DNA of 64,000 bases from Rhodocyclaceae bacterium (GTDB lineage Bacteria > Pseudomonadota > Gammaproteobacteria > Burkholderiales > CAIKXV01): positions 1 to 64,000 of the forward strand of contig JADCHX010000021.1 in assembly GCA_020248265.1 (NCBI GenBank). Reading direction: 5' to 3'. Position 1 is the stretch's first letter, and the number at the start of each line of letters is the position of its first letter. Shown one piece after another: positions 43,288-60,133 of the stretch. The notes beneath the pieces were generated by a model. That model worked only from the letters and a program-made list of their open reading frames with translations, was not told the DNA's origin and searched no databases. The position numbers were made by a program, and so were the translations under genes.

Positions 43288-43320
43288 TGCGTACCTGTCG
43301 GGTGACTGTTGCTTTTCAAT

Positions 43321-43571: not shown

Positions 43572-43586
43572 TGTGAATCGGTCACA
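43572..43586. promoter_or_regulatory. CRP-like site TGTGA-N5-TCACA (first)
   Basis: TGTGA (43572-43576), ATCGG, TCACA (43582-43586): the E. coli CRP half-sites with a 5-bp instead of 6-bp spacer. It lies in the 423-bp gap between the Crp copy 1 gene and the small gene at 43711. A CATAGA hexamer at 43628-43633 is at a class-I-like distance. The rest of this gap shows no gene. Confidence 0.55.
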
Positions 43587-43710
43587 TCGAAGCGGTAAAC
43601 CGCGCACAGATGCCTGCGCAGTGACTCCATAGAGTGAAGGCCACCGCTGCTGTGCGTCCCTGGCCCAGCCAGAACGCGGTCGGCGGCTCTCTCTCATTGG
43701 GGTACCCGTC

Positions 43711-43941
43711 ATGAACGACCTGCACTGCGATCCGAAGGTCAACGCCAGCCTGAACCGTTCGTATCCCGTGTTCGACGCTCAGGCCCTGCATGAACTGCAC
43801 GCCTGGGCACGAGCAGAACGTGCCCGTCAGCTGCGCCAGGGCCTCCGGCACGCCAGCGCTCTGCTCTGGCGTGCCTGCGCCCAGGTCTGGCGCTGCGTGC
43901 GGGCTGGCCTTGCCTTGCCCTTGCGCGGGAAGCGGGGGTAG
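43711..43941 (+). CDS. Small hypothetical protein
   Basis: A 76-residue protein: polar N-terminus (MNDLHCDPKVNASLNRSYP), then an amphipathic, Arg-rich helix region (ELHAWARAERARQLRQGLRH) and a Trp/Cys-containing basic tail. There is no clear family; it vaguely resembles short Arg-rich DUF1127-like proteins. A CRP-like site lies 125 bp upstream. No good ribosome-binding site, so it is a moderate call. Confidence 0.45.
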   Translation: MNDLHCDPKVNASLNRSYPVFDAQALHELHAWARAERARQLRQGLRHASALLWRACAQVWRCVRAGLALPLRGKRG

Positions 43942-44140
43942 TGGGTACGTCGGTGCGGGCAACAACCAGAACAGTGCGGGCAGGCGAAGCCACGAAGTCG
44001 CAATCCTGAGACCTGCTTGCACAGCACCCGCTCCACCGGCACCGACGCCGAGCAAGGCCGGCTAGCCTGCTCCAGTGCACGGCGAGCGTCGATTCGGAGT
44101 CAGGGCGGTCCAGCCTGACCGGATCGACCGCGTGTCAGAA

Positions 44141-44184
44141 TGTGAAAAAGTCACAGATGTGTCGGCGCGAACCTGCAGTAGGCT
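44141..44184 (+). promoter_or_regulatory. CRP-like site and promoter of the exoprotein gene
   Basis: TGTGA (44141-44145), AAAAG, TCACA (44151-44155) repeats exactly the half-sites and 5-bp spacer seen at 43572-43586. TAGGCT at 44179-44184 could be a -10; its distance places the site near -42, the class II activator position. It lies 114 bp before the exoprotein start. The 327-bp gap 43942-44268 otherwise holds no gene. Confidence 0.55.
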
Positions 44185-44268
44185 TTGTCCATCGTACGTA
44201 ATCTTGGCCTTGTCTGGAGCCAAGACCTCCGTCAAGATAAGGTCTGGAGCAGATTTGGAGATGATGCT

Positions 44269-47200
44269 GTGAAGCGCATCGGGCGCCATTGCCGGCTTGA
44301 TCGGGTGGCTATCGTTGCTGCTGGAATCGGCGTGATGGCCCCAGCCAGCGCCCAGATCGTGACCGATGGGACGCTGGGTGCAGCCTCGACGCTGTCCGGT
44401 GCCAATGTGACCATCCCCGCCTCGCTCGGAAGGCAGGCCGGCGCCAACCTGTTTCACAGCTTCGCCACGTTCAACGTATCCACCGGCGGCAGTGCGATGT
44501 TCAGCGGCCCTGTGTCGGTGGGCAACGTGCTCGCACGGGTCACCGGCGGCACCGCGTCGAGCATCAACGGGAAGTTGGGGACATCGATCGCCGGCGCCAA
44601 TCTCTACCTGATCAATCCGGCCGGCATCCTGTTCGGCAGCGGGGCGACGCTCGATCTGACCGGGTCGTTCCATGCGACCACCGCGAACTACATCCGGATG
44701 GGCGACGGCACGCGCTTCGAGGCAGTTGCGGTCGACCCGGGCGTGCTGTCGATCGCGCCGCCGCAGGCGTTCGGCTTCCTCGGGCCGGCGCCTGCGCCGA
44801 TCACCATCACCGGTTCGGTGTTGAACGGCGCCTTCGGCAAGGATGTGTCGTATGTCGGCGGCAACGTCGCCATCAGCGGTGCGGCTGCGCGCGTGCGCGG
44901 GCGCGGCGGCGATCTGCGCATCGCCAGTGCGGCTGGCGCGGGCGAGTTCGCCCTCGATTCCGGGCTCACGCCCAGCGCTGGCCTGGCGCACGGAACGATC
45001 ACGGTGAGCGGCGGTGCGCAGTTGAACGCCGAGAGCGTGGCCAGTATGGCGCTGGCACCGGGCCGCATCGTGATCCGCAGCGGACAGATTGCGATCGCCG
45101 GGGCATCGATCACCAGCGTGAACAGCCAGGCGGCCGATGCGCGGCCGATCGAGATCACGTCCACGGGGGTGAGCGACGGCACGATCAACGGCGCCGGCTT
45201 CATCGCGCGCGGGGCGACGATCGTCTCGCGCTCCAATGCCGGGGGGCGTGGCGCCGACGTGGTGATCGACGCACCGGCGATGCAGTTCGACCAGTACACC
45301 CGCGTGCAGACAATCGCCGGCTCGACCGGCCGCGGCGGCGACCTGCGCTTCACCGCCGAGGGCCCGCTGACCGTGCTCGCGCAGCCGGCCGATCCGAACT
45401 ACACCGCGATCACCAGCTTCGCGCTGGCCGGGGGGCGCGGCGGCGACATCGTGCTGCGCGGCGACCGGGTGGTGGTGGACGCGGGGATCGTGCAGATCGA
45501 TGGCCGTGGCGCCGGTGCCGGCGGCGCGATCACGATCGATGCTGGCGAGGCATCGATCGTCAATGGCGGTTTCGTCTACAGCTACATGCGCAACACCAGC
45601 AGCGGGCCCGGCAGCAACATCAGCGTCAATGCCAGCCGCCTGATCGAACTGTCCGGCGTCGACTGGGACGGTAACGTGTCGAGCGTGCTGTCCGACACCT
45701 GGGGCAGCGGTCGCGGCGGCAACGTCCTGCTGTCGGCCCCCGTGATCCTCACCAGTGGGCTTGCCGAGTACGGGACGAGGGCGGTCGGCAGCGGACGTGG
45801 CGGTGACATGATCATCTCCGCGCAACGCTTCGCGCCCACCGATTCGCTCGGCTACACCTACAGCTACAGCACCGGTGGTGCCGGCGACATCAGCGTGACC
45901 GCGCCGCAGATCACCGTCGCCGGGGTGGGCATCATCAGCGTCGCCTACGACCGTGGCAACGCCGGCGCGATACGCCTGAACGGCGACACGATCCGGCTGC
46001 AGCCGGGCGTCCTGCAGCGGGACGTGAACATCGAGAGTTCCAACAGTCAGTCGACCGGAGATGGTGGCAACGTCGAGATTCGTGCTGCCACCTCGTTCGC
46101 AATCGATACGACAGCCGATCGCGGCAGTTTCGCGCGCGTGGCAGCGGTCACACAAGGTGGCGGGCGCGGGGGCACGATCCTGATCGATGCTCCCTCGGTG
46201 CTGCTCGATGGTGGCGCCTTGTTCTCGCGCACGCGCTGGGGTACCGGTCAACAGGGTCAGATCCTGGTGCGTGCCGATTCGCTGCGCATGGCCCACGACG
46301 GCCGCATCGTCTCCACCACCGAAGGCCCGCGCGACGGCAGCCTGATCGACATCTCGGCACGCAGTATCGTGATGCAGGATGGGGCCGTTATCGTCGCCTC
46401 GGCCGATCCGGACTTGAGCGGGTTCTCGCCCACGACGACAGGCAGTGCCGGCCGGATCTCCATCACCGGAGAAGCGCTGCGCATGACCGGTGCCTCGCGC
46501 ATCGAAGTCAACGCCAATGATGGCACCGCCGGCAACGCCGGTGCGCTCACGATCAACCTCACCGGTGCCTTCGAGATGGTCGAACGGGCGCCGGCGTACG
46601 GTGTCGGCTTTTCGGGGGCTGATCCCCTCTGGCCAGGCGGCCTGAGCAGCCAGGCGCGCGGCAGCGGTAACGCCGGCAGCATCAGCGTCAACGCGGCCTC
46701 AATCCTGCTCGACGATGGGCGCATCCAGAGCAACGCGCTGCTGAACGGCCGTGGCGGCTCGGTGACGCTGCGCGCAGGCGACATCACTCTGCGCAATGGC
46801 GCGCAGGTCGATGCGCGTTCGGCCACCGGCTCGACCGGTGCCGCCGGTTCGATCGACATCGCCGCCACCGGCAGTCTGCTGATCAGTGGCCGCAGTCCGA
46901 CCGACGCGGCCTTCTCCGGCCTGTACGCCGAGACGCAGGGCAGCGGTGCCGGTGGCGGCATCGTGCTGGCGGCTGACACGATGACGCTCGACCGCGGCAT
47001 CGTGCGCACCTCGACCACCGGTGCCGGTAACGCCGGCCCGCTGACGGTGCGCGCCGGCGACCTTGCGGTGGTCAACGGCGGCTGGATCGACGCTGGCACC
47101 AGCAGCAGCGGTGCCGGCGGGCGCGTCGACATCGCCGCCAGCCGCTCGATCCGGGTGAGCGGTGTAGATGCGACAGCGGTGGTTGCCGACACGATAGCGC

Positions 47201-47997
47201 CTGACCTCGTACGCGGCGCTGCCGGCCGTGCACAGGGCCCGTTCCCGAGCACGATCTCCAGCAACAGCGCCGGCTCCGGCAATGGCGGCAATCTCAGCCT
47301 GGACGCGCCGGCAATCCTGATCAGCGACAGTGGCCGGGTCACTGCCACCGCTACCGGCACCGGCAATGCCGGCTCGATCGCGGTGAGCGCGAGCGATCGC
47401 CTGCAGCTGTTCGGTGGCACGATCAGCACCCGGGCCGCAGCGAGCGACGGCGGCAACATCGATGTGACGGTGGGTACGCTGCTGCACCTGAAGGGCGGTG
47501 AAGTGAGCACGGCCGTCGGGTCGGGCGCCGGCGCCGGGGGCAACATCGCGATCGATCCGATATTCGTGGTGTTCGAGCAGGGCTCGCGTATCGTCGCCAA
47601 TGCCTTCGGCGGACCGGGCGGCAATATCGGTATCGTCGCCAACTATTTCTTCAACGCGCCCGGGACGTTGATCGACGCCTCGTCGGCACTCGGGCTTCCT
47701 GGCACAGTCCAGGTCAGTACCTCTGGCATCGATCTGGTCAGCGCGCTGGCTGCACTGCCCTCGCAGTTCCTGGACGCCACTTCGTTGCTGCGCACCGCCT
47801 GCTCGGTACGCGGCAGCAGCAGTGGCAGCAGTCTGCGTGCCACTGGCCGCAGTGGTCTGCCGTTCTCGCCTGAGCAGAACCTGTTCTCCAGCTACTTCGA
47901 CCCAGCGGATTCTTCCGGCGCCAGTGCGGCGGCCGGCGTGTCTGCGTCGCCCCTGCTTGCCTGGGCGACGCCCGCGTTCCACTTTGCCTGCCGCTGA
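44269..47997 (+). CDS. Filamentous-haemagglutinin-type TPS exoprotein (TpsA)
   Basis: A 1242-residue secreted protein. The signal peptide ends near APASAQ (residue 29), followed by the TPS secretion domain with IVTDGTLG, FHSFATFNV and the NPAG motif in LYLINPAGILFGS (about residue 116). The remainder is repetitive, rich in GRGGD, GNAG and GSGAGG turns alternating with beta strands, as in a right-handed beta-helix. The C-terminus LLRTACSVRG...RSGLPFSPEQNLFSSYFD resembles the conserved end of cyanobacterial-type FHA proteins. GTG 44269 follows GGAG; the frame is open to 44185. A CRP-like site is upstream and the TpsB pore gene overlaps its end. Confidence 0.87.
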   Translation: MKRIGRHCRLDRVAIVAAGIGVMAPASAQIVTDGTLGAASTLSGANVTIPASLGRQAGANLFHSFATFNVSTGGSAMFSGPVSVGNVLARVTGGTASSINGKLGTSIAGANLYLINPAGILFGSGATLDLTGSFHATTANYIRMGDGTRFEAVAVDPGVLSIAPPQAFGFLGPAPAPITITGSVLNGAFGKDVSYVGGNVAISGAAARVRGRGGDLRIASAAGAGEFALDSGLTPSAGLAHGTITVSGGAQLNAESVASMALAPGRIVIRSGQIAIAGASITSVNSQAADARPIEITSTGVSDGTINGAGFIARGATIVSRSNAGGRGADVVIDAPAMQFDQYTRVQTIAGSTGRGGDLRFTAEGPLTVLAQPADPNYTAITSFALAGGRGGDIVLRGDRVVVDAGIVQIDGRGAGAGGAITIDAGEASIVNGGFVYSYMRNTSSGPGSNISVNASRLIELSGVDWDGNVSSVLSDTWGSGRGGNVLLSAPVILTSGLAEYGTRAVGSGRGGDMIISAQRFAPTDSLGYTYSYSTGGAGDISVTAPQITVAGVGIISVAYDRGNAGAIRLNGDTIRLQPGVLQRDVNIESSNSQSTGDGGNVEIRAATSFAIDTTADRGSFARVAAVTQGGGRGGTILIDAPSVLLDGGALFSRTRWGTGQQGQILVRADSLRMAHDGRIVSTTEGPRDGSLIDISARSIVMQDGAVIVASADPDLSGFSPTTTGSAGRISITGEALRMTGASRIEVNANDGTAGNAGALTINLTGAFEMVERAPAYGVGFSGADPLWPGGLSSQARGSGNAGSISVNAASILLDDGRIQSNALLNGRGGSVTLRAGDITLRNGAQVDARSATGSTGAAGSIDIAATGSLLISGRSPTDAAFSGLYAETQGSGAGGGIVLAADTMTLDRGIVRTSTTGAGNAGPLTVRAGDLAVVNGGWIDAGTSSSGAGGRVDIAASRSIRVSGVDATAVVADTIAPDLVRGAAGRAQGPFPSTISSNSAGSGNGGNLSLDAPAILISDSGRVTATATGTGNAGSIAVSASDRLQLFGGTISTRAAASDGGNIDVTVGTLLHLKGGEVSTAVGSGAGAGGNIAIDPIFVVFEQGSRIVANAFGGPGGNIGIVANYFFNAPGTLIDASSALGLPGTVQVSTSGIDLVSALAALPSQFLDATSLLRTACSVRGSSSGSSLRATGRSGLPFSPEQNLFSSYFDPADSSGASAAAGVSASPLLAWATPAFHFACR

Positions 47998-49750
47998 ACG
48001 ACATCGGCGGCCAGGCTGCAGCTTCCAGTCGCTGATCCTGGCGACAGCCACGGCCTGCGCGACAGTGGCCGGGTCGATGGCAAGAGCCCAGATCGCGCTG
48101 CCGCCTGCCGATCAGCCCAGCCGACCGCGTGACCTGCAGTCGCTGCCAGACGAGTTGCCGCGCGCGCCGGTACGGCCGGAGTTGCTGCTGCCGGTGGTGC
48201 CGCCAGGGAGGGCACCCGAGGCAGGCAGTCTGGCCACGCAGCCGGCGCTGTTGTTGCGCGCGCTGCGGTTCGAGGGCAACACCGTGTTCAGCGCGCCTGA
48301 ACTGCAAGAGGTGGTGGCCAGGTATCTGGGCACACGGATCGGTGCTGCCGAACTCGAGGCGATCCGGCTGGCGATCACTCGGCGGTACATCGAGGCAGGC
48401 TACATAAACTCAGGCGCAGTGATTCCGGATCAGGAGGTGAACGACGGCGAGCTGCGGGTGCTGGTGATCGAAGGCCGACTTACCAGCATCGACATCATCG
48501 GCCAGCACCGCTTCCGGCCGGGTTATCTGCGCGACCGCCTCGCTCGCAGTGCGGAGCCGGTGCTCAATGTGAATCGGTTGCAGGAGCAGATGCAGTTGCT
48601 GCTGCAGGATCCGCAGATCGAGCGGCTGTCGGGCGAACTGGCACCCGGCAGCCAGCCGGGCGCAGCACGCCTGCGAGTCGATGTAACTGGCGGGCCGGTG
48701 TACTTCGCCAGCTTCGCCTATGGCAACGATCGCTCGCCAGTGGTGGGTACAAACCAGGCCGAGGCATTCGTGGGCGCACGCAATCTGTTCGGTGCTGGTG
48801 AAGTGATCACGCTGCGTGGTGCGGTAACCGAGGGTCTGGATGATGGGCAGTTCAGCGTCGTGATGCCGATTCATGCGAGCGGCACCCAGGTGCAGTTTCG
48901 GCTGGCGAAGACTCGAAGCCGGATCGTCGAGGCCCCGCTCGACCAGCTCGACATCAGCGCGGCGTCGAGCGGGTTCGATCTTGCGCTGTCGCAGCCGCTG
49001 ATCACTGCGCTTGCCAGATCGCTGATCGCCACCGCGACAGTCTCGAACCGGCGCACGCGCAACTATTTTCTCGGTCAGCCGTCGGTGTTTGTGCCCGGCG
49101 CCCCCGATGGCGTGACCACCGTGAGCGCGCTGCGCCTCGGGCTGGACTGGGTGGGGCGCTCGACCCAGCGCGTGGTGGCCTTGCGCGGTCTTGTGTCCTT
49201 CGGGCTGGACGCGATGGGGGCATCGGTCGCCAGCGCGCCCGGCATCGCCGATTCGAAGTTCACCTCGGCGCTGGTGCAGGGGCAGTGGATCGAGCGGTTG
49301 GGTGCACGCGGCACCCTGGTCGCGAGGGCGGAGAACCAGCAGTCCAACGACAGTCTGCTCGGCCCGGAGCGCTACGCGCTCGGCGGCATTGACAGTGTGC
49401 GTGGGTATCGCAAGGATGTGCAGATACGCGACAGCGGCTGGTTCTCCTCGATCGAGTACCGGCATCTGGTTGGCCATGTGCGGCTTCCTGGGCAACGCGC
49501 CCAGGCCAAGACGGACGGCGCACTGCAGCTGGCCGTGTTCGCCGATGCCGGCAAGGGCCGGCTGCGCAACGATCCCGCGCCAGCGCCCGGTTATCTGTCG
49601 AGCATCGGCGCTGGCGTACGCTGGGAACCCTACGCCGGCGTGCAGTTGCACATCTACTACGGGGACGCGCTGCACCCGGTGCGGACGCCGACCTCGACGC
49701 TGGCCGACAATGGCTGGCACCTGCGTCTGACCTATGTGACTTCGTTCTGA
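47984..49750 (+). CDS. ShlB/FhaC/HecB family TPS outer-membrane pore (TpsB)
   Basis: About 588 residues. The N-terminal signal-like stretch is FQSLILATATACATVAGSMARAQ, followed by a Pro-rich linker. Two POTRA domains follow (LLLRALRFEGNTVFSAPELQEVV with AGYINSGAVIPDQEVNDGELRVLVIEGRL; then IDIIGQHRFRPGYLRDRL). The C-terminal barrel carries the Omp85 loop motif in GIDSVRGYRKD. It exports the upstream exoprotein through the outer membrane. The start is uncertain: TTG 47984 overlapping the exoprotein end is the best fit, since the next ATG (48077) would remove the signal. Confidence 0.87.
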   Translation: MPAAERHRRPGCSFQSLILATATACATVAGSMARAQIALPPADQPSRPRDLQSLPDELPRAPVRPELLLPVVPPGRAPEAGSLATQPALLLRALRFEGNTVFSAPELQEVVARYLGTRIGAAELEAIRLAITRRYIEAGYINSGAVIPDQEVNDGELRVLVIEGRLTSIDIIGQHRFRPGYLRDRLARSAEPVLNVNRLQEQMQLLLQDPQIERLSGELAPGSQPGAARLRVDVTGGPVYFASFAYGNDRSPVVGTNQAEAFVGARNLFGAGEVITLRGAVTEGLDDGQFSVVMPIHASGTQVQFRLAKTRSRIVEAPLDQLDISAASSGFDLALSQPLITALARSLIATATVSNRRTRNYFLGQPSVFVPGAPDGVTTVSALRLGLDWVGRSTQRVVALRGLVSFGLDAMGASVASAPGIADSKFTSALVQGQWIERLGARGTLVARAENQQSNDSLLGPERYALGGIDSVRGYRKDVQIRDSGWFSSIEYRHLVGHVRLPGQRAQAKTDGALQLAVFADAGKGRLRNDPAPAPGYLSSIGAGVRWEPYAGVQLHIYYGDALHPVRTPTSTLADNGWHLRLTYVTSF

Positions 49751-49759
49751 GACGAACTG

Positions 49760-50644
49760 TTACTGTGCTGCGGCGCGCGCGCGTATCCGCTGCTCGTCCG
49801 GCCGGTCGGATGCCAGCCGCCGCCACTCGCCATCGGCCTGTTCACGCAAGCCCCAGGTATCGAGCAGGGCGGCGTAGAGAAGCCGGTCGGAAAAGCCGGC
49901 ATCTGCAGGCGGCTGCGCTCGGCTGGCGCTCGCGCGCATGGAATCGCCGGCCACCCCGAACTCGGTCCAGCCTTCCAGCCTCGCCCCGGTGGGCAGGTGT
50001 GCCGTCACCTGCCAGGCATAGGTGCGGCCGGGCTCGAGACCGAGTGCTGGCGGCAGGGTGAGCCGGGTTTCAGTCAACGACTCGACTACATGAATCAGGG
50101 TGCCGCGCGAATCGGTGAGTTCGAACCGATAGCTCAGAGCGCCTGGCCCGGGTTGCCAGCTGAACTCGCGTGGCATCTCGAGCAGCCAGGTGGCCACGGG
50201 CGAAGTCAGTCGAAGTGGCTCGGGTTGGCCCTCGCCGCGCATCGCTATGCTTGCCTGCGCAAGTCGTCCGGTGCGCAGCGACACCTCGCGCAGTGCGCCA
50301 CCGAGCGGTTCACGGGTGGTGATGCGTCCGCCTGCACGCAGCGACTGCGCGCCCTGGTTGGTCCAGCGAAAATCGCCTGGACCGTACAGCGTGTACTCCA
50401 CGCCGGTGACGGTGTGTACCAGCACAACCCGCGCGGCTGCATCGAGTTGCAGTTCGCTGCCCGGGGCCAGTTCGCTCAGCAGTTCGACGCGCGCCTTCGA
50501 GCGCTGGCTGCTGGTGCCCTGCGTGTCGATCACCAGAGCCATGGTCGCGCTCCAGGCGAAGGAGCTGCCCAGCATCGCCGCCAGCGCCATCGCCATCGAC
50601 CCGGCGACTGCTCGGGAAACTGATCCAGCGAAAATTCTGCTCAT
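49760..50644 (-). CDS. FecR-like periplasmic protein with fibronectin-like domain
   Basis: A 294-residue exported protein (signal ends near SFAWSAT). Residues about 30-130 resemble a FecR-type beta domain: LVIDTQGTSSQR, ELAPGSELQLDAAARVVLVHTVTGVEYTLYGPGDFRW and GGRITTREPLGG. A second part (FSWQPGPGALSYRFELTDSRGTL... TYAWQVTAHL) resembles a fibronectin type III-like fold. Last gene of the CHAT-Crp-cyclase operon; ATG 50644 overlaps the cyclase stop (ATGA). A role as envelope sensor or adaptor for the CHASE2 cyclase or CHAT peptidase is inference. It ends 9 bp from the convergent tpsB gene. Confidence 0.7.
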   Translation of the reverse strand: MSRIFAGSVSRAVAGSMAMALAAMLGSSFAWSATMALVIDTQGTSSQRSKARVELLSELAPGSELQLDAAARVVLVHTVTGVEYTLYGPGDFRWTNQGAQSLRAGGRITTREPLGGALREVSLRTGRLAQASIAMRGEGQPEPLRLTSPVATWLLEMPREFSWQPGPGALSYRFELTDSRGTLIHVVESLTETRLTLPPALGLEPGRTYAWQVTAHLPTGARLEGWTEFGVAGDSMRASASRAQPPADAGFSDRLLYAALLDTWGLREQADGEWRRLASDRPDEQRIRARAAAQ

Positions 50645-52500
50645 CGGGACACCTCTGCATTGGCCACACCGGCTTCGGGGGAAACCCCGGCTGCGCGTGC
50701 GGGCCATCCGAAAACCTGAACTGGAGCATGACCCTTGAGCGCGTGATACCCCAGATCGTCGAACGCTATCCCGGGCTGCAGCGCCGACGCAACGTGATTA
50801 TTCACCAGAACCGGATAGCCGAGCTCGCGGGTCAGTCCCTCCAGCCGGGCTGCCACATTGGCGCAGTCGCCGATCGCGGTGTACTCGTTGCGCTCCGCCG
50901 ACCCGACGCGTCCGACCACGGCCTCGCCCAGCGCGAGCCCCAGCCCCATGGCGATCGCCGGCCGCGATTGCGCAACCAGCTCCGCATTGAGCTGATCGAT
51001 CCCGGTCAGGATGTCGCGCGCAGCGCTGAAGCCTTCCTGCGCGGGGTCGGCCGAAGGCTGGGGTGCGCCGAACATGCACATGATGCCATCGCCGCGGAAG
51101 TTGTCGATCGTGCCCTGGTGCCGGTGCACGGCCGCAGTCACCTGGCTGAAGTAACGGTTGAGCAGATCGACGATCTCTTCGGGTTCGCTGCGTTCGGTCA
51201 ACTGCGTGAAGTCCCGGATGTCGCCGAACATCACGCACAGGGTGCGCCGGCCGCTGCCGGTGCCGGCCTGCAGCTGGCCGCTGACGATCAGATCGAGCAC
51301 GTTAGGGCTCACTGCCCCGGCAAACGCACGCTGCAGCCAGTGTCGTTCGCGATGGCTGAGCCACGCTTGAGTGAACAGGCGCGCGCCTGTGGCCAGTCCC
51401 GCCCCGAGCAGCGCGCCGCCGATCGGCAGCCACCACTGTCGATGCAGCAGCAACAGGGCGGATGCCGCCAGCGCCAGTGCGACCAGGGCAAGCGACGCCA
51501 GTCCGACCGCAGGCCTGCGCCCGCAGAACCAGAGCAGGCCGGCGAGCGCTGCGAGCAGCATCACCCAGGGCAGTGCCACTGGCCGGATCGGTCCCGGCCC
51601 GAGCAGGGTGCGCAGTGCCTGCGCATGCAGCAGCACGCCCGGCACGGTGTCCGCGTGTTCCCACTCCGCCAGCCGCACTGGCGCGCGATGTCGATCCTCG
51701 AAGGGAAGTACGCTGCCGATCAGGACGACCTTGTCGAGCATTGCGGCACGCAAGCGCAGCTTGTCGCCTGCCACTGCCCAGGCATGGACTTCAACCAGCG
51801 GCAGATAGCTGAAACGCGGCCCGACGCTGTAGTCGATCAGACCGGCGGTCGGTGTGCGGCCAAGACGGCGGGCCAGCAGGCTGCTGAAGGTTTCGATGCC
51901 GCCCTCGCTGTCGCCCAGGCGCGGTGTGAGGCGCCGAACGATCGCGTCCGGGTCGACCTCCAGGGCGGCCAGCGCGCTGCCGTCGGCACCAAGCACGGTC
52001 AGATAAGGCACGAACACCGGCTTGAGTCGGCCATCGCGATCCAGGCCACGCGCAATTACCAGCGGCTGCGCGCGAGCGAGCTGAGACAGGGCACGCAGAA
52101 GCGTGCGGTCCAGCTCCGGCTGGATGAAGGCGAGCGAGCGATCGGGCAGCTCGACATCGAGGCCGACGGCGCGCGGCCCCGCTTCGGACAGTGCCGAGAA
52201 CAGGGTGGAGAGCCGCAGGTGCCAGAGCGCGAGCGGCTCGGGAAAGGCGCGCAGTGTCGCATCGTCGATGCCGATCACGACCACTTCGATGTCTGCTGCG
52301 CGTGGTGCGACCGCCTGCAAGACGCGCTGTCCCGCATCGACCAGCTTGTGGTCCAGCCACTGCACTGGCGAGGTGAACGGCAGCACCGCCGCACACAGAC
52401 AGCACAGCGCGGCGATCCCGCGGCTGCGCGCAGCGGTGAGGATCGACCGGGACTCGGCCAGAGACTGCCCCGGGCTGGATACGGTCGACGGGTTCCCCAC
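50641..52500 (-). CDS. CHASE2-domain class III adenylate/guanylate cyclase
   Basis: A 619-residue membrane protein: N-terminal helix, an extracytoplasmic CHASE2 domain (VVVIGIDDATLRAFPEPLALWHLRLSTLF to about residue 300), three transmembrane helices (about 305-380) and a class III cyclase domain (421-600). Metal-binding Asp427 (MFGDIRDF) and Asp471 (RGDGIM) are present, as are Asn548 and Arg552 (NVAAR). The adenine-specifying Lys is replaced by Asn467 (IDNFRGD), while Thr541 (YTAIGD) is of class IIIb type. It may therefore make cAMP with altered selectivity, or be weak. GTG 52500 is one base after the Crp stop. Confidence 0.88.
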   Translation of the reverse strand: MGNPSTVSSPGQSLAESRSILTAARSRGIAALCCLCAAVLPFTSPVQWLDHKLVDAGQRVLQAVAPRAADIEVVVIGIDDATLRAFPEPLALWHLRLSTLFSALSEAGPRAVGLDVELPDRSLAFIQPELDRTLLRALSQLARAQPLVIARGLDRDGRLKPVFVPYLTVLGADGSALAALEVDPDAIVRRLTPRLGDSEGGIETFSSLLARRLGRTPTAGLIDYSVGPRFSYLPLVEVHAWAVAGDKLRLRAAMLDKVVLIGSVLPFEDRHRAPVRLAEWEHADTVPGVLLHAQALRTLLGPGPIRPVALPWVMLLAALAGLLWFCGRRPAVGLASLALVALALAASALLLLHRQWWLPIGGALLGAGLATGARLFTQAWLSHRERHWLQRAFAGAVSPNVLDLIVSGQLQAGTGSGRRTLCVMFGDIRDFTQLTERSEPEEIVDLLNRYFSQVTAAVHRHQGTIDNFRGDGIMCMFGAPQPSADPAQEGFSAARDILTGIDQLNAELVAQSRPAIAMGLGLALGEAVVGRVGSAERNEYTAIGDCANVAARLEGLTRELGYPVLVNNHVASALQPGIAFDDLGYHALKGHAPVQVFGWPARAAGVSPEAGVANAEVSR

Positions 52501-52501
52501 G

Positions 52502-53134: not shown

Positions 53135-53144
53135 CGCGAGCGCG

Positions 53145-55427
53145 CTAAAGCCAGTTGCCAATGACCATGAATGGCGACCAGAGCCCGGGATGCCTGTAGC
53201 GCAGGTCGGACAGCAGCAGTTGCTGCGCACGGCGCAACGCTTCGGCCTTGCTCACGCCGGGCTGTGCCAGCTGCCGATAGAACTCTCCCACCAGCACCCG
53301 GGTCGCCGCATCGCTGACTTGCCACAGTGTGGCCACGGCGCTGCGCGCGCCGGCCTTGACCGCCACCCCGGCAAGACCCAGCGCAGCCCGTTCGTCGCCA
53401 GCCGCGCTCTCGCAGGCACTGAGAAGAAGCAGCTCGATCGGGTCGTCGCGCAGTCGAGTCGTGCGCAACTGCTGCTCGAGCCGATCGATCGAAAGCCGTC
53501 CGTCATAGGTGAGCAGGAAGGACTGGCGCGAGTCGGCGGAGAAACGCGCATGCGAAGCGACATGGACTACCGAGACCGGCGTTTCGCGCAGGTTTTTCTC
53601 GAACGCCTGCGCGCTGAATGCCGAGTCGAGCAGCACCGCCTTCGCGCCGAAAGCGGCCACTTCGCTCAACTCGCCCTCGACTGCCGGCAGCGCTGTGAAT
53701 CCCTGCACTGCCTGCGATACGCCCGCAGCCAGAATCGAAGTGCCCCGGCTGGCGAGTGGTCTTGGATCGACCAGCGTCAGGCTGGGCGCGATCGCCACCG
53801 CGTAACGGGCAAGCAGGAAGTCGTTGCCATCATGCAGCGCCGCCAGCGGCACGCCGCGCAGCGGCGCATCCGGAATCATCACCAGCGTATGCACCGATGC
53901 GCCGGTCAGTATCGTGTCCAGAGGCCGGATCACCCAGTCGTAGAGCTGGCGTGCATGGGGCAGGTACCGAAAGGTCGTTCTTCTTTCCAGCGCTGCACGC
54001 AGTGCGTTGGTCTCCCGTCGCAACTGTTCTTCGCCTACCGGGACCGAGACACGATACATGCGCTCGCCCACGCTCACCAGCAGCTCCAGCCGGTCGCGCA
54101 GCGGGATCGGATAGATGATCGCCGTGCCTGCGGCCGCCTGCTCGAGCGGACGGATGCCTGCCAGATACCGCTCGACACAGTCGTCGCGGAAGTAGTCTTC
54201 CAGCTCGACGGTGCGAAAGCGCTCGATGACCGCGCGCGCTTCGCGCAGCGAAGCCGCCGAGCGCTGCGTATCGCTGTCCTGCCCGGCGCGGCGCAGCAGC
54301 AGTTCGACGAAACCGAGATAGGCGGCGCCGACCCGCTCCCGGTAGGCGTCGCCCGCCGCCCAGGTGTCGGCCGCGATGTCCGGCTTGATCTCGTTGAGCG
54401 ATGCGAGCGAGGCGCGATACGCATTGATCGCGCCGGTGGCGTCACCGGCGGTGTCGAGCAACCGGGCAGACTGCCACTGCGCACGGAACACAGCCAGCGG
54501 TTGACCGGACGCCTGCGCCGCGAACTGCGCCCGTGCATTGAGCCGGGCAGCGGCTGGCAGATTGCGCTGGTCGATCTCGAGTTCAGCCAGATGGATCAGG
54601 CTGAATGCGGCCGCGTACGGATCGCGCAGTTCGGCGGCGCTCGTGGCCGTGCCCTCGAGCGACAACCGTGCGGCGCGCACCACCGGGTCTCCTGCAGTGC
54701 GGCCGAGTTCGCGCAGCAGATCGCCCGCAGCGGCGCGCGCAAGCACGGTGTCCCGGCTCACGGGTGCCGTTGCCAGCAGCTTTTCGGCACCGCTGGCGGC
54801 GCCGGTCGCGGCGGCGAGGTTGCCGCTGCGAAACTCGAGGCGGCCCAGATTGATCGCCGCGCTGGCCGCTGTCAGTGTGTTGCCGGCATTTTCCGCAGCG
54901 GCCTGCGCGCGGCGAAACTGCAGTGCTGCATCTGGCAGACGCTGCAGGCGCAGGTACAGCAAGCCCAGATCGTTGGCTGCCACAGCCTCGATACGCGTAT
55001 TGCCAGACGAGCTTGCCAGCACGATCGCTTCCTGCAACGGCGCTTCGGCGGTGTCGATCTCGCCGGCGCGCAGCCGCGCCTGGCCGAGAGTGCCGGCAAT
55101 GGCTGCGCGCAGCGGCGCAGAGGCGCTGGCAGGCAAGAGCTGCGAGGCGGTCTGCGCATCGGCGAGCGCACGCTGGCGATCTCCCGCGCCCTGATGGGCG
55201 GCGGCGCGCAACGCGTAGGCCTGCGCCAGCCGCTCCGGATTGCCCACCCGCTGCGCCTCCAGCAGCAAGCGTTCAGCCCCTTGCATCGCATCTTCCCTTG
55301 CCGGTGCGCTGGCTGCTGCCACAGCGAGCGAAAGCGTGCACATCGGCACGGCAACGAGCGAGCGCCAGAGGCTGCGAGTCCGGGGCTTGCGGCGTGACAA
55401 AGTGCTTTCGGGTTCGGTTGTCACCAT
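53145..55427 (-). CDS. Exported TPR-CHAT caspase-like peptidase
   Basis: A 760-residue protein: signal peptide (SLVAVPMCTLSLAVAAASAPA), a helical TPR array of about 400 residues (e.g. AYALRAAAHQGAGDRQRALADAQTA, LGLLYLRLQRLPDAALQFRRAQ), then a CHAT domain. The catalytic dyad is His626 (VVHVASHARFS) and Cys672 (LLLSACESAAGD). CHAT proteins belong to the caspase/separase clan and cleave specific proteins. The predicted export is notable: most studied CHAT enzymes are cytoplasmic. ATG 55427 is chosen; TTG 55463 is possible. First gene of the operon with Crp, CHASE2 cyclase and FecR-like protein. Confidence 0.88.
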   Translation of the reverse strand: MVTTEPESTLSRRKPRTRSLWRSLVAVPMCTLSLAVAAASAPAREDAMQGAERLLLEAQRVGNPERLAQAYALRAAAHQGAGDRQRALADAQTASQLLPASASAPLRAAIAGTLGQARLRAGEIDTAEAPLQEAIVLASSSGNTRIEAVAANDLGLLYLRLQRLPDAALQFRRAQAAAENAGNTLTAASAAINLGRLEFRSGNLAAATGAASGAEKLLATAPVSRDTVLARAAAGDLLRELGRTAGDPVVRAARLSLEGTATSAAELRDPYAAAFSLIHLAELEIDQRNLPAAARLNARAQFAAQASGQPLAVFRAQWQSARLLDTAGDATGAINAYRASLASLNEIKPDIAADTWAAGDAYRERVGAAYLGFVELLLRRAGQDSDTQRSAASLREARAVIERFRTVELEDYFRDDCVERYLAGIRPLEQAAAGTAIIYPIPLRDRLELLVSVGERMYRVSVPVGEEQLRRETNALRAALERRTTFRYLPHARQLYDWVIRPLDTILTGASVHTLVMIPDAPLRGVPLAALHDGNDFLLARYAVAIAPSLTLVDPRPLASRGTSILAAGVSQAVQGFTALPAVEGELSEVAAFGAKAVLLDSAFSAQAFEKNLRETPVSVVHVASHARFSADSRQSFLLTYDGRLSIDRLEQQLRTTRLRDDPIELLLLSACESAAGDERAALGLAGVAVKAGARSAVATLWQVSDAATRVLVGEFYRQLAQPGVSKAEALRRAQQLLLSDLRYRHPGLWSPFMVIGNWL

Positions 55428-55488
55428 GGTACGGACGGTAGCAGGGCCTCCGGAGCCGGGCAAGCGCTCCAGGCAGGCCGGACCTGTG

Positions 55489-55579: not shown

Positions 55580-57821
55580 TCAGTTCCACCAGTGTCCGGT
55601 TGGTGCGCCGCAGCCGGTGCGCGAGTTCACGGCACAGGTTGGCGGTGATGGTGATTGCAGTGCCTGGCGACTGTCCGGCGAGCCGGTCGAAGCCGGTGCG
55701 CGGCAGGACCAGACATGCGAGGTCATCGTCGGCGATCACCGTGGCGGTGCGCGGCGACTGATCGATCATCGCTACCTCGCCGATGAAGGTGCCCGCGGAG
55801 AAGGTGACCAGGCGCACGCGCCGCCCGCGCAGCAATGCGCTGGCGCTGCCGGCGATCACCAGGTAAAGCGAATCACCCGGATCCCCCTCCTCGAACACGG
55901 TGGCGCCTCGTGGGTGACGCGTCAGCGTCAGCTCGGCGCGCAGCAGGGCGAGCTCGTCTGCATCAAGCCCATTGAACAATTCGAACTGCGACAACTCGAC
56001 GGCGTCGACGGTGGCCGCGAGGCCGAGCCGCGCCGTCGCGGCGCCGGCTGCGGCGCGCAGCAACCCGTCCTCTGCCCACTCCAGCGCGCGGTCGATGTCG
56101 GGGAAGATGCGCTCGCTGCTGATCGCCGTGCGCGTGCCGGCGGCGTCCAGGTAGCGGTCGAGCGGGCTGCCCTCGCGTAATCCGGCGATCAGCAGATGGT
56201 GCCCGTCGCTCACCAGCAGGTCGCTGACCCGGCTCAGGATGCGCGAGCCGCTCAGATCGATCTCGCTGACCCGGCCGACATCGATGACGACGAAGGTGGG
56301 GGTGCGCACGCAAGCTGCCTCGATCCGTTTGGCGAGGTCCTCGGCGGTGCCGAAGAAGATCGCGCCTTCGAGCTCGAACACGACGATCTGCTCGCCGAGC
56401 TCCGCCAGCTGCTCGGCCTCGCTGCGCGGCCGACTGCGGCGCGAGCGCACGAACGCACAGCGGTAGCTGCGGCGGATCACCGATCGGCTCATGCGCACGA
56501 TGAAGTACACGACCGAGATGCCGATGCCGGCAGCCACGGCCAGTACGATGTTCATCGCCAGCGCCACCCCCGCGACGAGGCCCACGATCGAAAGCTCGCG
56601 CCATACGCCAGCGGCGGCACACGGACCTGCGCGCATGGCGCACGCCAGCTGCTGCAGTGTCCAGCGATCGATCAGCCCGATGCCTACCGCCACCAGGATG
56701 CCGCCGATCACTGCGCGCGGGATCATCGCCAGCACATCGGGCAGCAGCACCACCGCGCCGAGCACGAGCAGCAGATGCACGGCGCAGTAGCCACGCGTGC
56801 GGCCGCTGGCGCGCTGGCCTGCGGCGCTGGAGGCCAGCGCGATCGCGCCGGGAATCGCCCCGAACAGTGCGCTGGCGATGTTGCCGGCACCGATGCGCGT
56901 GAGCTCCTGGTTGCCGCGGAACGCCTGGCGGCTCTCGCCGGCGAGCGCCTTGCCACCGAGCAGCGCGTCGAGCGAACTGATCAGCGCAATCGATATTGCG
57001 CCGATCGCGATCGAGGGCAGCAGCTCGCGCAGTGCCGGCTCGGTCAGTGCCCAGTAAAGGGTGCCCGGGTAGACCGGTGCCGGGAGGCCTGCCGGCAGGC
57101 CTCCGAGGACCGCGCCGCCGGCGAAGTCCGGAATCAGGGCCTGCAGCAGGTAGAAGGCGAGCGTACCTGCCGTGCCGCCAACGGCCAGTGCCGGCAGGTG
57201 CGACCAGTGCCGGGGACGCACCAGACACGCGGTGAGCGTCAGCGCAGCCACCAGCACGGCGCCGACTTCGACCCCGGCGAGCTGCCGCGACAGCTCGGCC
57301 AGCCGCAGCGGCTCGTGCTGCCCGGTCACCGCGTCGAACTGGCCGACGATCAGCAGCAACCCGGCGGCGCACTGGAAGCCTGCGATCACCGGGTGCGGCA
57401 CATACTTGACCGCTCCGCCTGCGCGCAGTGCGCCGAGTGCGATCTGCGCGACCCCCGCTAACAGTCCTATCAGCAGCACGATCGCCACCACCTGCTGCGG
57501 CGCCAGTTGCGCCAGGAGCTCCTCGTGCTGCTCGACCAGCAGATGCAGCACCAGCGCGTTGATCATGAACGCGACCATGTTGCGGGGACCGTACAGCAGC
57601 GGTGCGCGCGCGCCCATCAGCAGCGCCACGGCGTTCATCACGATCGCGCTGTACAGGCCGGCGACCACGCCGTAGCTGTAGAACTGCGGGCCGAGCGGGG
57701 CCAAGGCGAACAGGCCGTAGCCGATGGCGACCGGCAGCGATACCAGCGCTGCGCTGAGCCCGGCCGCGGCCTCACGCTGCAGCGTGCGCAACCCGCCGGC
57801 ATCGATCGACAGGCGGTTCAT
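55572..57821 (-). CDS. SulP-family permease with STAS and cyclic-nucleotide-binding domains (copy 1)
   Basis: A 749-residue fusion. About residues 15-430 form a SulP carrier (LPVAIGYGLFALAPLGPQFYSYGV, YVPHPVIAGFQCAAG). A STAS domain follows (VFELEGAIFFGTAEDLAKRI, VIDVGRVSEIDLSGSRIL). A C-terminal cNMP-binding domain has EEGDPGDSLYLVIAGSASALL and cassette GEVAMIDQSPRTATV. In the carrier core the usual SRTA-type motif after NIASALFGAIPG is degenerate (AIALASSAAGQRASGRT). Gating of anion transport by cyclic nucleotide is inferred. ATG 57821 overlaps the stop of copy 2. Confidence 0.88.
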   Translation of the reverse strand: MNRLSIDAGGLRTLQREAAAGLSAALVSLPVAIGYGLFALAPLGPQFYSYGVVAGLYSAIVMNAVALLMGARAPLLYGPRNMVAFMINALVLHLLVEQHEELLAQLAPQQVVAIVLLIGLLAGVAQIALGALRAGGAVKYVPHPVIAGFQCAAGLLLIVGQFDAVTGQHEPLRLAELSRQLAGVEVGAVLVAALTLTACLVRPRHWSHLPALAVGGTAGTLAFYLLQALIPDFAGGAVLGGLPAGLPAPVYPGTLYWALTEPALRELLPSIAIGAISIALISSLDALLGGKALAGESRQAFRGNQELTRIGAGNIASALFGAIPGAIALASSAAGQRASGRTRGYCAVHLLLVLGAVVLLPDVLAMIPRAVIGGILVAVGIGLIDRWTLQQLACAMRAGPCAAAGVWRELSIVGLVAGVALAMNIVLAVAAGIGISVVYFIVRMSRSVIRRSYRCAFVRSRRSRPRSEAEQLAELGEQIVVFELEGAIFFGTAEDLAKRIEAACVRTPTFVVIDVGRVSEIDLSGSRILSRVSDLLVSDGHHLLIAGLREGSPLDRYLDAAGTRTAISSERIFPDIDRALEWAEDGLLRAAAGAATARLGLAATVDAVELSQFELFNGLDADELALLRAELTLTRHPRGATVFEEGDPGDSLYLVIAGSASALLRGRRVRLVTFSAGTFIGEVAMIDQSPRTATVIADDDLACLVLPRTGFDRLAGQSPGTAITITANLCRELAHRLRRTNRTLVELSR

Positions 57822-60133
57822 ATGGTGAGGTGGGTGATCGCGCGCGTGGTGTCGCGCAGTCGTTCTGCCAGCGCACGGCTCACGTTGCGCAGCACCGCGA
57901 GCGCGATCGCCGGGTGTTGCTCGCGCAGGTGCGCCAGCGCCTCGGCGCTCAGGCTGTGACACACCATCGGCTCGTCGGCGATCACCGTGGCCGAACGCCG
58001 CTCGTGGTCGAGCAGTGCCAGCTCGCCGAAAACGGTGCCCGGGGCGAAGGTGACCATGCGCAGGCTGTCCTCGCCGATCTGGGCGTGTTGGCGCGTGTCG
58101 CGATCGCCTTCGGCTGCGAGCAGATCCCCGTGTTCGACGCGCATGCGCACGCTCGCCGAGCCGCGCACGATGACATGGAGTGCGACGCCGGCATCCCCCT
58201 CATGGAAAAGGATATCGCCCGTCGCGTACTCGCGCCGCTGCATCAGCGCCTGCAACCGCTCGATCGAATGCGCGTCGAGGCCGCGAAACAGATCGCTCCG
58301 CGCGAGGTCCAGTTCTAGCGGTTCGCCGAGCGTGCTCAACTGCTCGTGGATGATCTGCTCTTCCGCCCACTCGATCGCATGGTCGGCATCGACATGCATC
58401 GCGCGTGGCGACGCAGCGTCGAGTACCTGCGCGCGTACCAGCGCCTGGGTGACCAGCGGCCGCAGCGCCAGTCCGGCCAGCACGATGTGTACGCTCGCCG
58501 CGCGCAGCCGCGCCATCTCTGCGGCGAGCAGGCGCGCAGCGGTCGAGTCGATCTCGGTCACTCGCGAAAGGTCCAGCACGATGTACGTCGCGCCGGCGCG
58601 CACCGCGCGCTGCAGCAGGCTGGTCAACTGCTCGGCGGTGCCGAAGAACAGCGCGCCGTGAAGCTCGAACACCTGGATGGTCTGGCTGTGTCCGGCAAGC
58701 AGCCGGGCGATGCGCTCCGGGCGCGCCTTGCGCGAGCCGATCTGTGCGGCGTTGTAGGCGCGCCGCACTACCGTCCCGCTCATCCGGAACACAAAGGAAA
58801 GTACGGCGATGAGCCCGCCCACCGCGATCGCGACCAGCGCATCGGCGAGCAGCGTGGTGAGCGCGACCAACGCGACCACCGCGAGGTCGAGCGCGAGCCG
58901 CGCGCGACCGGCATTGCGCCGTGCGAACAGCCGCGGCAGCGCGTACAACGTCCAGCGATCGATGACTTTCCATGCGACGAAGAGCAGTGCGCCGCCGACG
59001 GCCGCCCGCGGCAGTACGCCCAGCAGCGGAGCGCTCGCCAGCAGCGCGCCGCAGGCGGCTGTCGCGCATACCACCAGCCCGATCAGGCCGAGTCCGCCGG
59101 CGGCCGCTGCAGCGAAGTTGGCGGCAAGATTGACCGAAGCTGGCACCGCCCCGGCGACGCCGCCGATCAGGTTGGCGGTGCCCGCGCGCAGCAGCAGGCC
59201 GTTGCCGTTCATCCGCTGGCGGCTGGCGTTCTCCACCGCCTTCGCGCTGAGCAGCGCGTCGATCGACGCGATGATGGCGATGCTCAGCGTGAGCAGCAGC
59301 AGTGCGGGGAGCAGAGGTTCGATCGAAGGCCCCTCGGCGAGGGCGTGCGCGAGCGCCCATCCGCCCTGCCAGGCAGGGTCCGGCAGCGCCGCTACAGGCA
59401 CCAGTACGGTCGGCCCGACGGCTCCGGTTCCAGCCACCGCAGCGAGCGCGTGGTGCAGCACCAGCCCGGCCAGCATCCCAGCCGGAATCGCTGGTAGCCA
59501 GGGCAGGCGCCGTGCCGCCAGCAGGCAACCGACGAACGCGGCCCCCATCACCAGCAGCGCGAGCGGTGGCGTGGCTGCCGCGGCTGCGGCGGGATCGTGC
59601 AGCCACGCAAGATGATCCCCTGCAGTGACCATCGGCAGCTGTCCGATGGCCAGCAACGCGGCCGCCGCATTCTGGAAGCCGGCCACCACCGGGTGCGGCA
59701 CGTACTTGCCCAGATTGCCGAAGCGCAGCAGGCCGAAGGCGATCTGCAGCAGGCCAGCCCCGGCGGTGATCAGCGCGACGCAGGCGAGTGCGAAAGCCGG
59801 CGGATGGTCGACACCGACCAGCGCCTGCAATGTCGCAGTGCCGATCAGAAAAGCAAGCATGCTGCTGGGTGCGAGCACCAGCGGCGTCGCCCGCGGGCGC
59901 GCCAGCCGGAACGCCAGCGCCACCAGAGTGCCGACCGCGACCGTCATCAGGCCAGCCTGTGCGCCGAGCGCGACGATCCGGTCCGCGCTGTCCTCGCCGC
60001 CCCCGCTGGCCAGCGGCAGCAGCGCGAAGATGCCCAGCCCGAGCGACAGCGGCACGGCAATCAGTGCGGCCGACAGCCCGGCGCCGAACTGCTGCTGCCA
60101 GCGGTGCCTGCTGCCAGGGTCAGCCAACGCCAT
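57818..60133 (-). CDS. SulP-family permease with STAS and cyclic-nucleotide-binding domains (copy 2)
   Basis: A 771-residue protein of the same build as copy 1 but quite diverged: SulP carrier (LIAVPLSLGLGIFALLPLASGG, YVPHPVVAGFQNAAAALLAI), STAS (VFELHGALFFGTAEQLTSLL, VLDLSRVTEIDSTAARLL), and a cNMP domain (HEGDAGVALHVIVRGSASVRM; cassette GELALLDHERRSATV). The latter has an insertion (EGDRDTRQHAQIGED) between strands. The motif after ANLIGGVAGAVPAS lacks the SRT residues. Overlaps copy 1 by four bases; the two may form a heteromeric carrier. SulP members move sulfate, bicarbonate or dicarboxylates; which one is unknown. Confidence 0.87.
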   Translation of the reverse strand: MALADPGSRHRWQQQFGAGLSAALIAVPLSLGLGIFALLPLASGGGEDSADRIVALGAQAGLMTVAVGTLVALAFRLARPRATPLVLAPSSMLAFLIGTATLQALVGVDHPPAFALACVALITAGAGLLQIAFGLLRFGNLGKYVPHPVVAGFQNAAAALLAIGQLPMVTAGDHLAWLHDPAAAAAATPPLALLVMGAAFVGCLLAARRLPWLPAIPAGMLAGLVLHHALAAVAGTGAVGPTVLVPVAALPDPAWQGGWALAHALAEGPSIEPLLPALLLLTLSIAIIASIDALLSAKAVENASRQRMNGNGLLLRAGTANLIGGVAGAVPASVNLAANFAAAAAGGLGLIGLVVCATAACGALLASAPLLGVLPRAAVGGALLFVAWKVIDRWTLYALPRLFARRNAGRARLALDLAVVALVALTTLLADALVAIAVGGLIAVLSFVFRMSGTVVRRAYNAAQIGSRKARPERIARLLAGHSQTIQVFELHGALFFGTAEQLTSLLQRAVRAGATYIVLDLSRVTEIDSTAARLLAAEMARLRAASVHIVLAGLALRPLVTQALVRAQVLDAASPRAMHVDADHAIEWAEEQIIHEQLSTLGEPLELDLARSDLFRGLDAHSIERLQALMQRREYATGDILFHEGDAGVALHVIVRGSASVRMRVEHGDLLAAEGDRDTRQHAQIGEDSLRMVTFAPGTVFGELALLDHERRSATVIADEPMVCHSLSAEALAHLREQHPAIALAVLRNVSRALAERLRDTTRAITHLTI

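Follow-up and report, generated by a model that had tools for sequence, protein, structure and literature searches.

A 64,000-nucleotide stretch of a Rhodocyclaceae genome (GenBank assembly GCA_020248265.1, contig JADCHX010000021.1, positions 1 to 64,000 of the forward strand), hereafter the window, carries a locus in which a two-partner-secretion (TPS) adhesin, TpsA, and its transporter, TpsB, are encoded beside an exported-looking TPR-CHAT peptidase, a CHASE2 sensor joined to a class III nucleotide cyclase, a further exported protein and two Crp-family regulators. The adhesin ends in a conserved signal that tracks the peptidase across genomes, which points to TpsA as a probable substrate of CHAT. 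The window's genome comprises 4.55 Mb in 33 contigs and is 98% complete. The features of the locus are as follows (open reading frames are abbreviated ORF; labels formed of G or L and a number denote genomes and locus stretches, respectively):

42643..43290 (ORF 42643-43566, likely start 43290), minus strand: crpA, Crp-family regulator with cNMP_binding and HTH_Crp_2 domains, divergent from tpsA
43572..43586, no strand: Crp-type palindrome site 1, TGTGA-N5-TCACA, one of two exact copies in the genome
44141..44155, no strand: Crp-type palindrome site 2, TGTGA-N5-TCACA, the second exact genome copy, some 114 bp ahead of the likely start of tpsA (44269)
44185..47997 (likely start GTG 44269), plus strand: tpsA, TPS adhesin; PF05860 at 8e-37, TIGR01901
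47665..47883, plus strand: C-terminal signal region of tpsA; 3.9e-23 with a tail-signal model of which the window's TpsA is itself a row
47800-47802, 47845-47850 and 47989-47991, plus strand: tail-signal residues, namely a Cys codon, the Gly-Arg codons of GRSGLPFSP and the codon of the penultimate Cys of the protein
47822..49750 (real start probably after the ORF start), plus strand: tpsB, POTRA/ShlB outer-membrane transporter; PF08479, PF03865
49760..50707, minus strand: MtxA-like ("FecR-like") protein, predicted to be exported; structure model with a Foldseek match to 4z29
50641..52500, minus strand: CHASE2 sensor and class III nucleotide cyclase; PF05226, PF00211, catalytic residues
52502..53230, minus strand: crpB, Crp-family regulator in the CHAT operon; cNMP_binding/HTH_Crp; same position in G008 and G005
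53145..55463, minus strand: TPR-CHAT peptidase with a predicted N-terminal export signal; PF12770 at 1e-57; dyad His638 and Cys684 (ORF numbering)
upstream of CHAT, minus strand: two SulP-STAS-cNMP genes; Pfam Sulfate_transp, STAS and cNMP domains

Pfam searches confirm the gene families named in the initial annotation, which had been made from the sequence alone: TpsA/TpsB, a CHASE2-cyclase, two Crp proteins, a TPR-CHAT protein and two SulP-STAS-cNMP proteins, with E-values of 8e-37 for the TPS secretion domain, 5e-25 for CHASE2, 6e-17 for Guanylate_cyc and 1e-57 for CHAT, the last with weak TPR matches besides. A TPS-domain TpsA encoded together with a POTRA/ShlB TpsB places the pair in type Vb, with secretion of TpsA through TpsB predicted. 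The translations also bear out a phosphate-binding cassette, GE...R-[TS]-A, in all four cNMP proteins, and ORFs overlap within units as described (FecR-like/cyclase at 50641-50707, crpB/CHAT at 53145-53230 and the SulP ORFs at 57818-57962, start codons being uncertain). Two points required amendment: of the two Crp genes, the first (42643-43290, ORF to 43566) lies outside the span 43572-60133 to which both had been assigned, and the gene called FecR-like is there, with no Pfam match to its product at E 0.001 and no NCBIfam match at 0.01. In profile searches of the whole genome, CHASE2 occurs once, at the locus, as does CHAT over its cut-off (a second CHAT match, at 2e-4, falls below it), and one of the two TPS domains is found here. 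The gene set lies beyond chance, since the genome's sole CHASE2 and sole over-cut-off CHAT are both at this place and the set recurs in other phyla.

That recurrence was followed in a scan that applied patterns built from four CHAT proteins to 84,980 species genomes. Of the 153 confirmed relatives the best 80 were analysed; the counts thus describe close relatives, many loci being cut by contig ends. Neighbours at these 80 loci include TpsB (49), DUF928 (49), TpsA (44), a cyclase (26), CHASE2 (24) and SulP (2). CHASE2 shares an ORF with the cyclase in 23 of its 24 occurrences, and in 17 of the 24 it is the next gene after CHAT, in the same orientation. The Crp profile has a match near 11 of the 80 loci; two of these matches fall within much longer proteins, the SulP protein of L082 among them. 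In a stricter subset, the 34 loci flanked by 6 kb or more on each side, TpsA or TpsB is present in 28, DUF928 in 28, CHASE2 in 11, a Crp match in six and SulP in one, and three loci have none of TpsA, TpsB, DUF928 or CHASE2. According to record titles, which may be wrong for assembled genomes, the 80 loci come from Burkholderiales, Methylococcaceae, Thiotrichaceae, Alphaproteobacteria, Nitrospira, Geobacter, Desulfonema, Myxococcota and Verrucomicrobia. TpsA, TpsB, an exported TPR-CHAT protein, a DUF928 or MtxA-like protein and a CHASE2 sensor are a cross-phylum module, present in six phyla by record title.

Within the genus, G008 has the order TpsA, TpsB, FecR-like, cyclase, Crp, CHAT, identical to the window, and G009 has cyclase, FecR-like, TpsB, TpsA and Crp on a contig that ends within the cyclase. 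The neighbourhood proposed by the initial annotation is thus upheld in part: the TPS pair, CHAT, the CHASE2-cyclase and Crp are linked in the genus and less completely in other phyla, and the SulP genes, at 2 of 80 loci, are not part of the pattern. On cyanobacterial plasmids (Planktothrix, Pseudanabaena ABRG5-3, Anabaena cylindrica), adhesin, ShlB, CHAT, DUF928 and a CHASE2 protein are again found together; of the six plasmid loci fetched first, the module is found in L125, L127 and L129, a gene fusion in L128, and L124 and L126 have CHAT without an annotated TpsA within 12 kb. A second cyanobacterial form combines adhesin and CHAT with a Ser/Thr kinase gene (L287, L288, L290). In G113 the module has an integrase-like ORF nearby (L036, 18799-19836), which together with the plasmid copies suggests that the module may be mobile. 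No CHAT relative was found in viral contigs, and a plasmid search with the tpsA DNA gave no match.

The CHAT domain of the window scores 196 bits against a curated cut-off of 24. His638 and Cys684 are invariant in an alignment of four CHAT proteins (A1), and across 85 CHAT ORFs the Cys motif is found in 85 and the His motif as written in 80. An export-signal pattern marks the N-terminus of the window protein and of 59 of the 81 CHAT ORFs scanned, internal control segments being positive in 2 of 81; the same pattern matched 29/48 TpsA and 3/15 Crp proteins and missed the window's own TpsA and FecR-like protein. A first, cruder scan was dropped as unspecific, 7 of its 15 Crp controls having been positive. 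A PDB sequence search with the CHAT profile matched TPR-repeat proteins, none of them named CHAT.

The most direct connection between adhesin and peptidase is a natural fusion. A 1756-residue protein of Acaryochloris marina plasmid pREC3, recorded as "CHAT domain-containing" (L128, 8224-13494), joins an adhesin, the tail signal and TPR-CHAT in one chain, with the TPS domain at residues 24-229, the signal at 835-901, TPR from about 950 to 1300 and CHAT at 1486-1754. The CHAT part keeps HLATH and LSACET, a DUF928 gene is the upstream neighbour, and the motif GRGGLP sits between the adhesin and peptidase parts.

In the tail signal a Cys and a short spacer precede SSF; some three residues later comes Gly-Arg, then a pair of mostly small residues, Leu/Ile/Val and two Pro separated by two residues. 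In the alignment of 34 TpsA tails from which the model was built (A2, the window's TpsA being one row), Cys46, Gly61, Arg62, Pro66 and Pro69 are at least 90% conserved. Cys followed by Gly-Arg is found in 40 of the 44 distinct complete TpsA ORFs of the related CHAT loci (50 TpsA ORFs less two cut by contig ends and four duplicates), and 27 of these 40 also have a Cys in the final six residues. The window's TpsA has both, one Cys ahead of the motif and one in the penultimate position, the two cysteines of an HMW1-type anchor, in which a disulfide would hold the tail in TpsB. A strict pattern matched 34/48 TpsA ORFs (four duplicates included), 0/57 TpsB, 0/86 CHAT, 0/29 CHASE2 and 0/54 DUF928. 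An earlier, wide Cys-Gly-Arg pattern, found in 46/48 complete TpsA ORFs and also in 7/29 CHASE2 ORFs, was not used, having been widened after one sequence was seen and counted with the four duplicate loci.

Presence of the signal correlates with that of CHAT. In a set of 150 relatives, 144 TPS domains occur in 69 genomes and nine tail signals in eight; because of this disparity the signal is not a general property of TpsA. Six of the nine signals share a contig with a CHAT match, against 0 of the 135 other TPS genes (Fisher 8e-9, contigs having been compared by eye and distant CHAT proteins possibly missed). As to the remaining three, CHAT lies on another contig of a fragmented assembly in G005, and in G007 and G009 on contigs that end inside the module. 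Among 329 genomes sampled evenly across the class, 20 have the signal, 24 CHAT and 19 both, where 1.5 would be expected (P = 2.6e-25, a value that ignores relatedness); the 19 belong to 14 families by our own count from the tables. A comparison of 29 signal loci with the rows of the signal alignment turned up one identical sequence apart from the window's own, that of G374. The single signal-only genome, G365, has its signal at a contig end, and two of the five CHAT-only genomes, G271 and G316, are represented by short contigs. G175 has nine signal-bearing places, with three CHAT genes on other contigs and no TpsB in the fetched stretches, the contigs being short; this layout makes action of CHAT in trans plausible. 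Seven of ten cyanobacterial CHAT-linked adhesins have Arg at the site, with Lys in L127, and the adhesin of the kinase-linked L288 is short and has no such tail. In plasmid records the signal query gave 22 matches, 18 of them also among the best 60 of 68 CHAT records (compared by eye), an overlap given no weight since many of the best 60 of 71 TPS records also have CHAT.

The output of the sensor varies across the module. The window cyclase keeps two metal Asp and the Thr/Asn/Arg positions, and has Asn at the purine-specifying Lys position, as do L031, L033, L044 and L170; these we take to be, respectively, the metal-binding residues, the transition-state Asn and Arg, and the place of the Lys that specifies adenine. 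Because that Lys is replaced by Asn, the sequence is compatible with cyclic AMP (cAMP) and cyclic GMP (cGMP) alike. Such residue statements cover the cyclases readable by residue patterns, some others, mostly of Nitrospira, being unreadable. In Cyanobacteria the CHASE2 proteins of the module have no cyclase, one carrying AAA_35, one a histidine kinase and one a CHAT domain; the constant part of the module is therefore extracytoplasmic and its output exchangeable, the cyclic nucleotide being one variant. The cyclic-nucleotide scheme of the initial annotation accordingly holds for the linkage of adhesin pair, CHAT, CHASE2-cyclase and Crp, and describes one of several outputs.

The FecR-like gene adjoins the cyclase gene in L031, L044 and L170 as well. 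With the threshold relaxed to E 1, its protein has weak Pfam matches alone, fn3 (0.17) among them, and its C-terminal half is predicted to form a beta sandwich with helices; a Foldseek search with the model places the MtxA C-terminal domain 4z29 at rank 2, and a second structural comparison (VIA-align) returned mostly single sandwich domains in its best 50 rows, 4z29 not among them. Its identification as an ordinary DUF928 protein was rejected: the profile comparison is weak (probability 46%, 66 columns), L044 carries both proteins, and the resemblance is one of fold only. DUF928 (PF06051) has no match over the cut-off in the window's genome. DUF928 itself contains a conserved Arg-Gly stretch (P39, R42, G45 and R48 at least 90% conserved in 32 rows), and in L119, L079 and L092 its N-terminal stretch has grown to numerous short Arg-Gly repeats (RGVS, TRGY, LRG) that echo the Gly-Arg of the adhesin. 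A Nostoc gene cluster of WD40, CHASE2 and DUF928 is described in the consulted part of PMC5587647, the one open-access paper found to mention DUF928, and a CHASE2-metacaspase fusion in that of PMC3501461, where CHAT and DUF928 are not mentioned.

CrpA and CrpB, each with a cNMP domain and HTH_Crp by Pfam, are identical at 129 of 199 aligned residues and both keep Arg-Glu and Arg in the recognition helix, residues that we presume to be significant. The palindrome TGTGA-N5-TCACA is present in exact form at just two places of the genome, 43572 and 44141, which both fall between crpA and tpsA, and its reversed N5 control has none; with the spacer relaxed to N4-8 the N5 copies are still the only ones. 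The chance of a second random site within 569 bp of the first is about 2.5e-4 by arithmetic. Both palindromes are exact in the near relative G009, and G005 keeps 14 of the 15 bases of site 1, spacer included, amid diverged surrounding DNA. One-mismatch N5 copies lie upstream of tpsA in G008 and just ahead of the CHAT frame in L044; a one-mismatch N5 scan of the window alone is unremarkable (2 against 0.96 expected, reached in 22/100 shuffles). The canonical Crp site has a spacing of N6, and TGTGA-N6-TCACA has no exact copy in the genome, its two-mismatch copies in the window being below expectation (7 against 16.7). An ORF at 43582-44055, between crpA and tpsA, was not counted as a gene, as gaps in the aligned relative are not multiples of three. 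Control of adhesin transcription by the messenger, as formerly suggested, is consistent with the Crp-gene linkage and the palindromes in this lineage; with Crp near just 11 of 80 loci, it is not general.

Gene linkage, the conserved signal, co-occurrence, the intact dyad residues and the palindromes form the observed basis of our proposal, to which we assign a probability of roughly 0.54: that CHAT is a dedicated protease for the adhesin tail, by analogy with LapG acting on CdrA, and that here the cyclase and Crp proteins would control the adhesin promoter. From the linkage, the signal and the fusion we infer that CHAT cuts the tail. TpsA would be exported through TpsB and retained by a C-terminal tail with Cys...GRxGLPxxP, often closed by a near-terminal Cys; the exported TPR-CHAT cysteine peptidase, probably Arg-directed, would recognise this tail and cut at or beside Gly-Arg, and the cut would release or mature the adhesin. 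CHASE2 and a periplasmic sandwich-helix partner (DUF928 in most loci, MtxA-like here) may sense the state of the envelope or of the adhesin, and in this lineage the cyclase product, whichever nucleotide it is, would be read by CrpA/CrpB at the two crpA-tpsA palindromes, with the direction of regulation likewise part of the proposal rather than of its observed basis. The initial annotation missed the extracytoplasmic nature of the constant part and the C-terminal signal of the adhesin, the latter pointing to the substrate of the peptidase.

Several observations weigh against this proposal. Three CHAT-only genomes of the 329 remain: in G259 the adhesin of a TpsA-CHAT-TpsB set has no signal in its tail, and G384 and G237 have CHAT genes with no TpsA in the fetched stretches. 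A basic residue at the site is not universal, the exceptions among the 44 TpsA being GH in L062, KQK in L097 and no motif in L075 and L120, and the kinase-linked L287 and L290 depart from a strict Arg rule with GTGGIP and GPGNL. The signal might serve as an anchor that a different protein recognises. As to the promoter, the N5 spacing is atypical for Crp, the one-mismatch sites are singly within chance (G005 18/200, G008 30/200 and L044 13/100 shuffles), and the number of exact sites is near chance by the reversed N4-8 control, which occurs at one place in the genome, what is unusual being the shared intergenic position.

A broader version is tentative and has the smaller share of our confidence: a C-terminal processing system of at least six phyla (record titles), in which TPR-CHAT would read the tails of one or many adhesins in trans, an exchangeable CHASE2 unit would sense the processing and DUF928 would act as a pseudo-substrate or competing substrate. 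Among known systems, dedicated proteases that read a C-terminal signal of scattered substrates are PorU of type IX secretion, which likewise belongs to clan CD, exosortase and rhombosortase. Here, by comparison, the secretion route and the protease families are different, and transpeptidation is not part of the proposal.

Slightly more doubtful still is the possibility that the signal works as a plug or disulfide loop by which TpsA is locked into TpsB or the envelope and so retained, as in HMW1 and HxuA, and that CHAT has a different substrate, for example the CHASE2 receptor or DUF928. The conserved Cys ahead of the motif and the Cys in the last six residues of 27/40 signal-bearing TpsA would fit such a lock, the HxuA and HMW1 anchors contain a disulfide loop according to the consulted part of PMC5422565, and the Arg-Gly stretch of DUF928 offers a candidate substrate. 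However, a signal read by TpsB alone should be common in TpsA, yet it is found nine times against 144 TPS domains and tracks CHAT; G175 has signal-bearing places without TpsB in the fetched stretches; and in the Acaryochloris fusion the motif lies between adhesin and peptidase.

That the locus is one cyclic-nucleotide island, whose messenger also gates both SulP carriers, is very unlikely. Both SulP proteins do end in cNMP domains and are immediate neighbours here; among 11 genomes of the genus, close SulP1 relatives are confined to G000, G005 and G008 (G010 having one at 32%), all three with the module, and in L082 a SulP-cNMP gene stands beside CHAT. Nevertheless, in G008 and G005 the gene after SulP1 encodes a Nudix protein, not CHAT, G007 and G009 (module genes present; 89% and 88% complete) have no SulP1 match at 1e-30, and SulP at 2/80 loci is about the level of a chance neighbour by a rough estimate. 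The 2/80 loci and the Nudix neighbours rule out SulP as a module member and count against the claim that the carriers belong to the island and are gated by the messenger; of the roughly 17-kb set once taken as a single unit, TpsA to CHAT is the conserved module and the SulP pair lies outside it.

A role in defence or programmed death, with CHAT as a death protease and a Pycsar-like cyclase with cNMP effectors, is the most improbable reading. In its favour, the cyclase, CrpB and SulP1 are hit by cyclase and cNMP-effector models of PADLOC, CHAT has a weak hit from BovA (E 0.001), and CHAT proteases act in Craspase as far as the consulted sources describe it. Against it, the cyclase and cNMP hits span generic domains only, and CHAT looks exported and travels with adhesin secretion. 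As regards the Pycsar pairing of a PycC cyclase with a PycTM or PycTIR effector, the matches obtained were to generic cyclase and cNMP domains.

Elsewhere in the window, a FemAB-like gene remnant of 90 residues (60120-60392) lies between SulP2 and a CIA30-like gene, possibly a scar at the island edge. A permease gene of the Asp-Al_Ex family (PF06826) looks broken at 39639-41419, where matches to the family fall in two ORFs of different frame. Over 34001-36000, measured in 2-kb steps, the window reaches its highest G+C (0.737) and its strongest AT skew (0.157); no Pfam match at 0.001 was obtained for the two ORFs tested from this stretch.

LapG is a cysteine protease, and LapD is part of a release system controlled by cyclic di-GMP (c-di-GMP). 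The closest resemblance to the proposed CHAT-TpsA pair is offered by CdrA/CdrB with LapG/LapD, in which LapG cleaves the TPS adhesin CdrA: a TPS adhesin, a periplasmic protease acting on its C-terminal tail and control by an intracellular second messenger (PMC5422565, consulted in part). Here, in contrast, the protease is CHAT, of the caspase clan, with no LapG-type peptidase (PF06035) matched in the 98%-complete genome (a Caulobacter control was positive), CHASE2-cyclase and Crp stand in place of LapD and c-di-GMP, and the tail signal differs. HMW1 and HxuA also have a Cys-bearing TpsA tail held at the cell surface (same source and extent); the present tails differ in having GRxGLPxxP conserved between their cysteines and in being linked to a peptidase. 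MtxA is described with a CHASE2-adenylate cyclase in magnetotactic bacteria, no adhesin or CHAT partner being mentioned in the consulted part of PMC4439547. The TPR-CHAT protein of Craspase (Csx29) shares the TPR plus CHAT peptidase architecture, as far as the consulted sources go, and has a CRISPR partner, whereas the present CHAT looks exported and is linked to TPS. Caspase-like domains inside polymorphic toxins are described in PMC3482391, the searched part of which does not mention CHAT. In the open-access literature, no substrate for such exported CHAT proteins was found among the matches listed, although the CHAT-adhesin link may be known from subscription papers, and neither a link between the CHAT domain and filamentous hemagglutinin, nor the GRGGLP motif, nor CHASE2 joined with adhesin, cyclase and protease was found there.

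According to the consulted part of a review (PMC5422565), several TpsA adhesins are matured by proteases that have yet to be identified. From the tail signal follows a concrete prediction of enzyme and substrate, open to testing in environmental bacteria and Cyanobacteria, which replaces the general signalling account of the initial annotation with a specific one, and the module places CHASE2, DUF928 and MtxA-like proteins in one envelope system. If the broader version holds, the cell would sense the processing of its own adhesin through an exchangeable CHASE2 unit, be it cyclase, kinase, AAA or CHAT.

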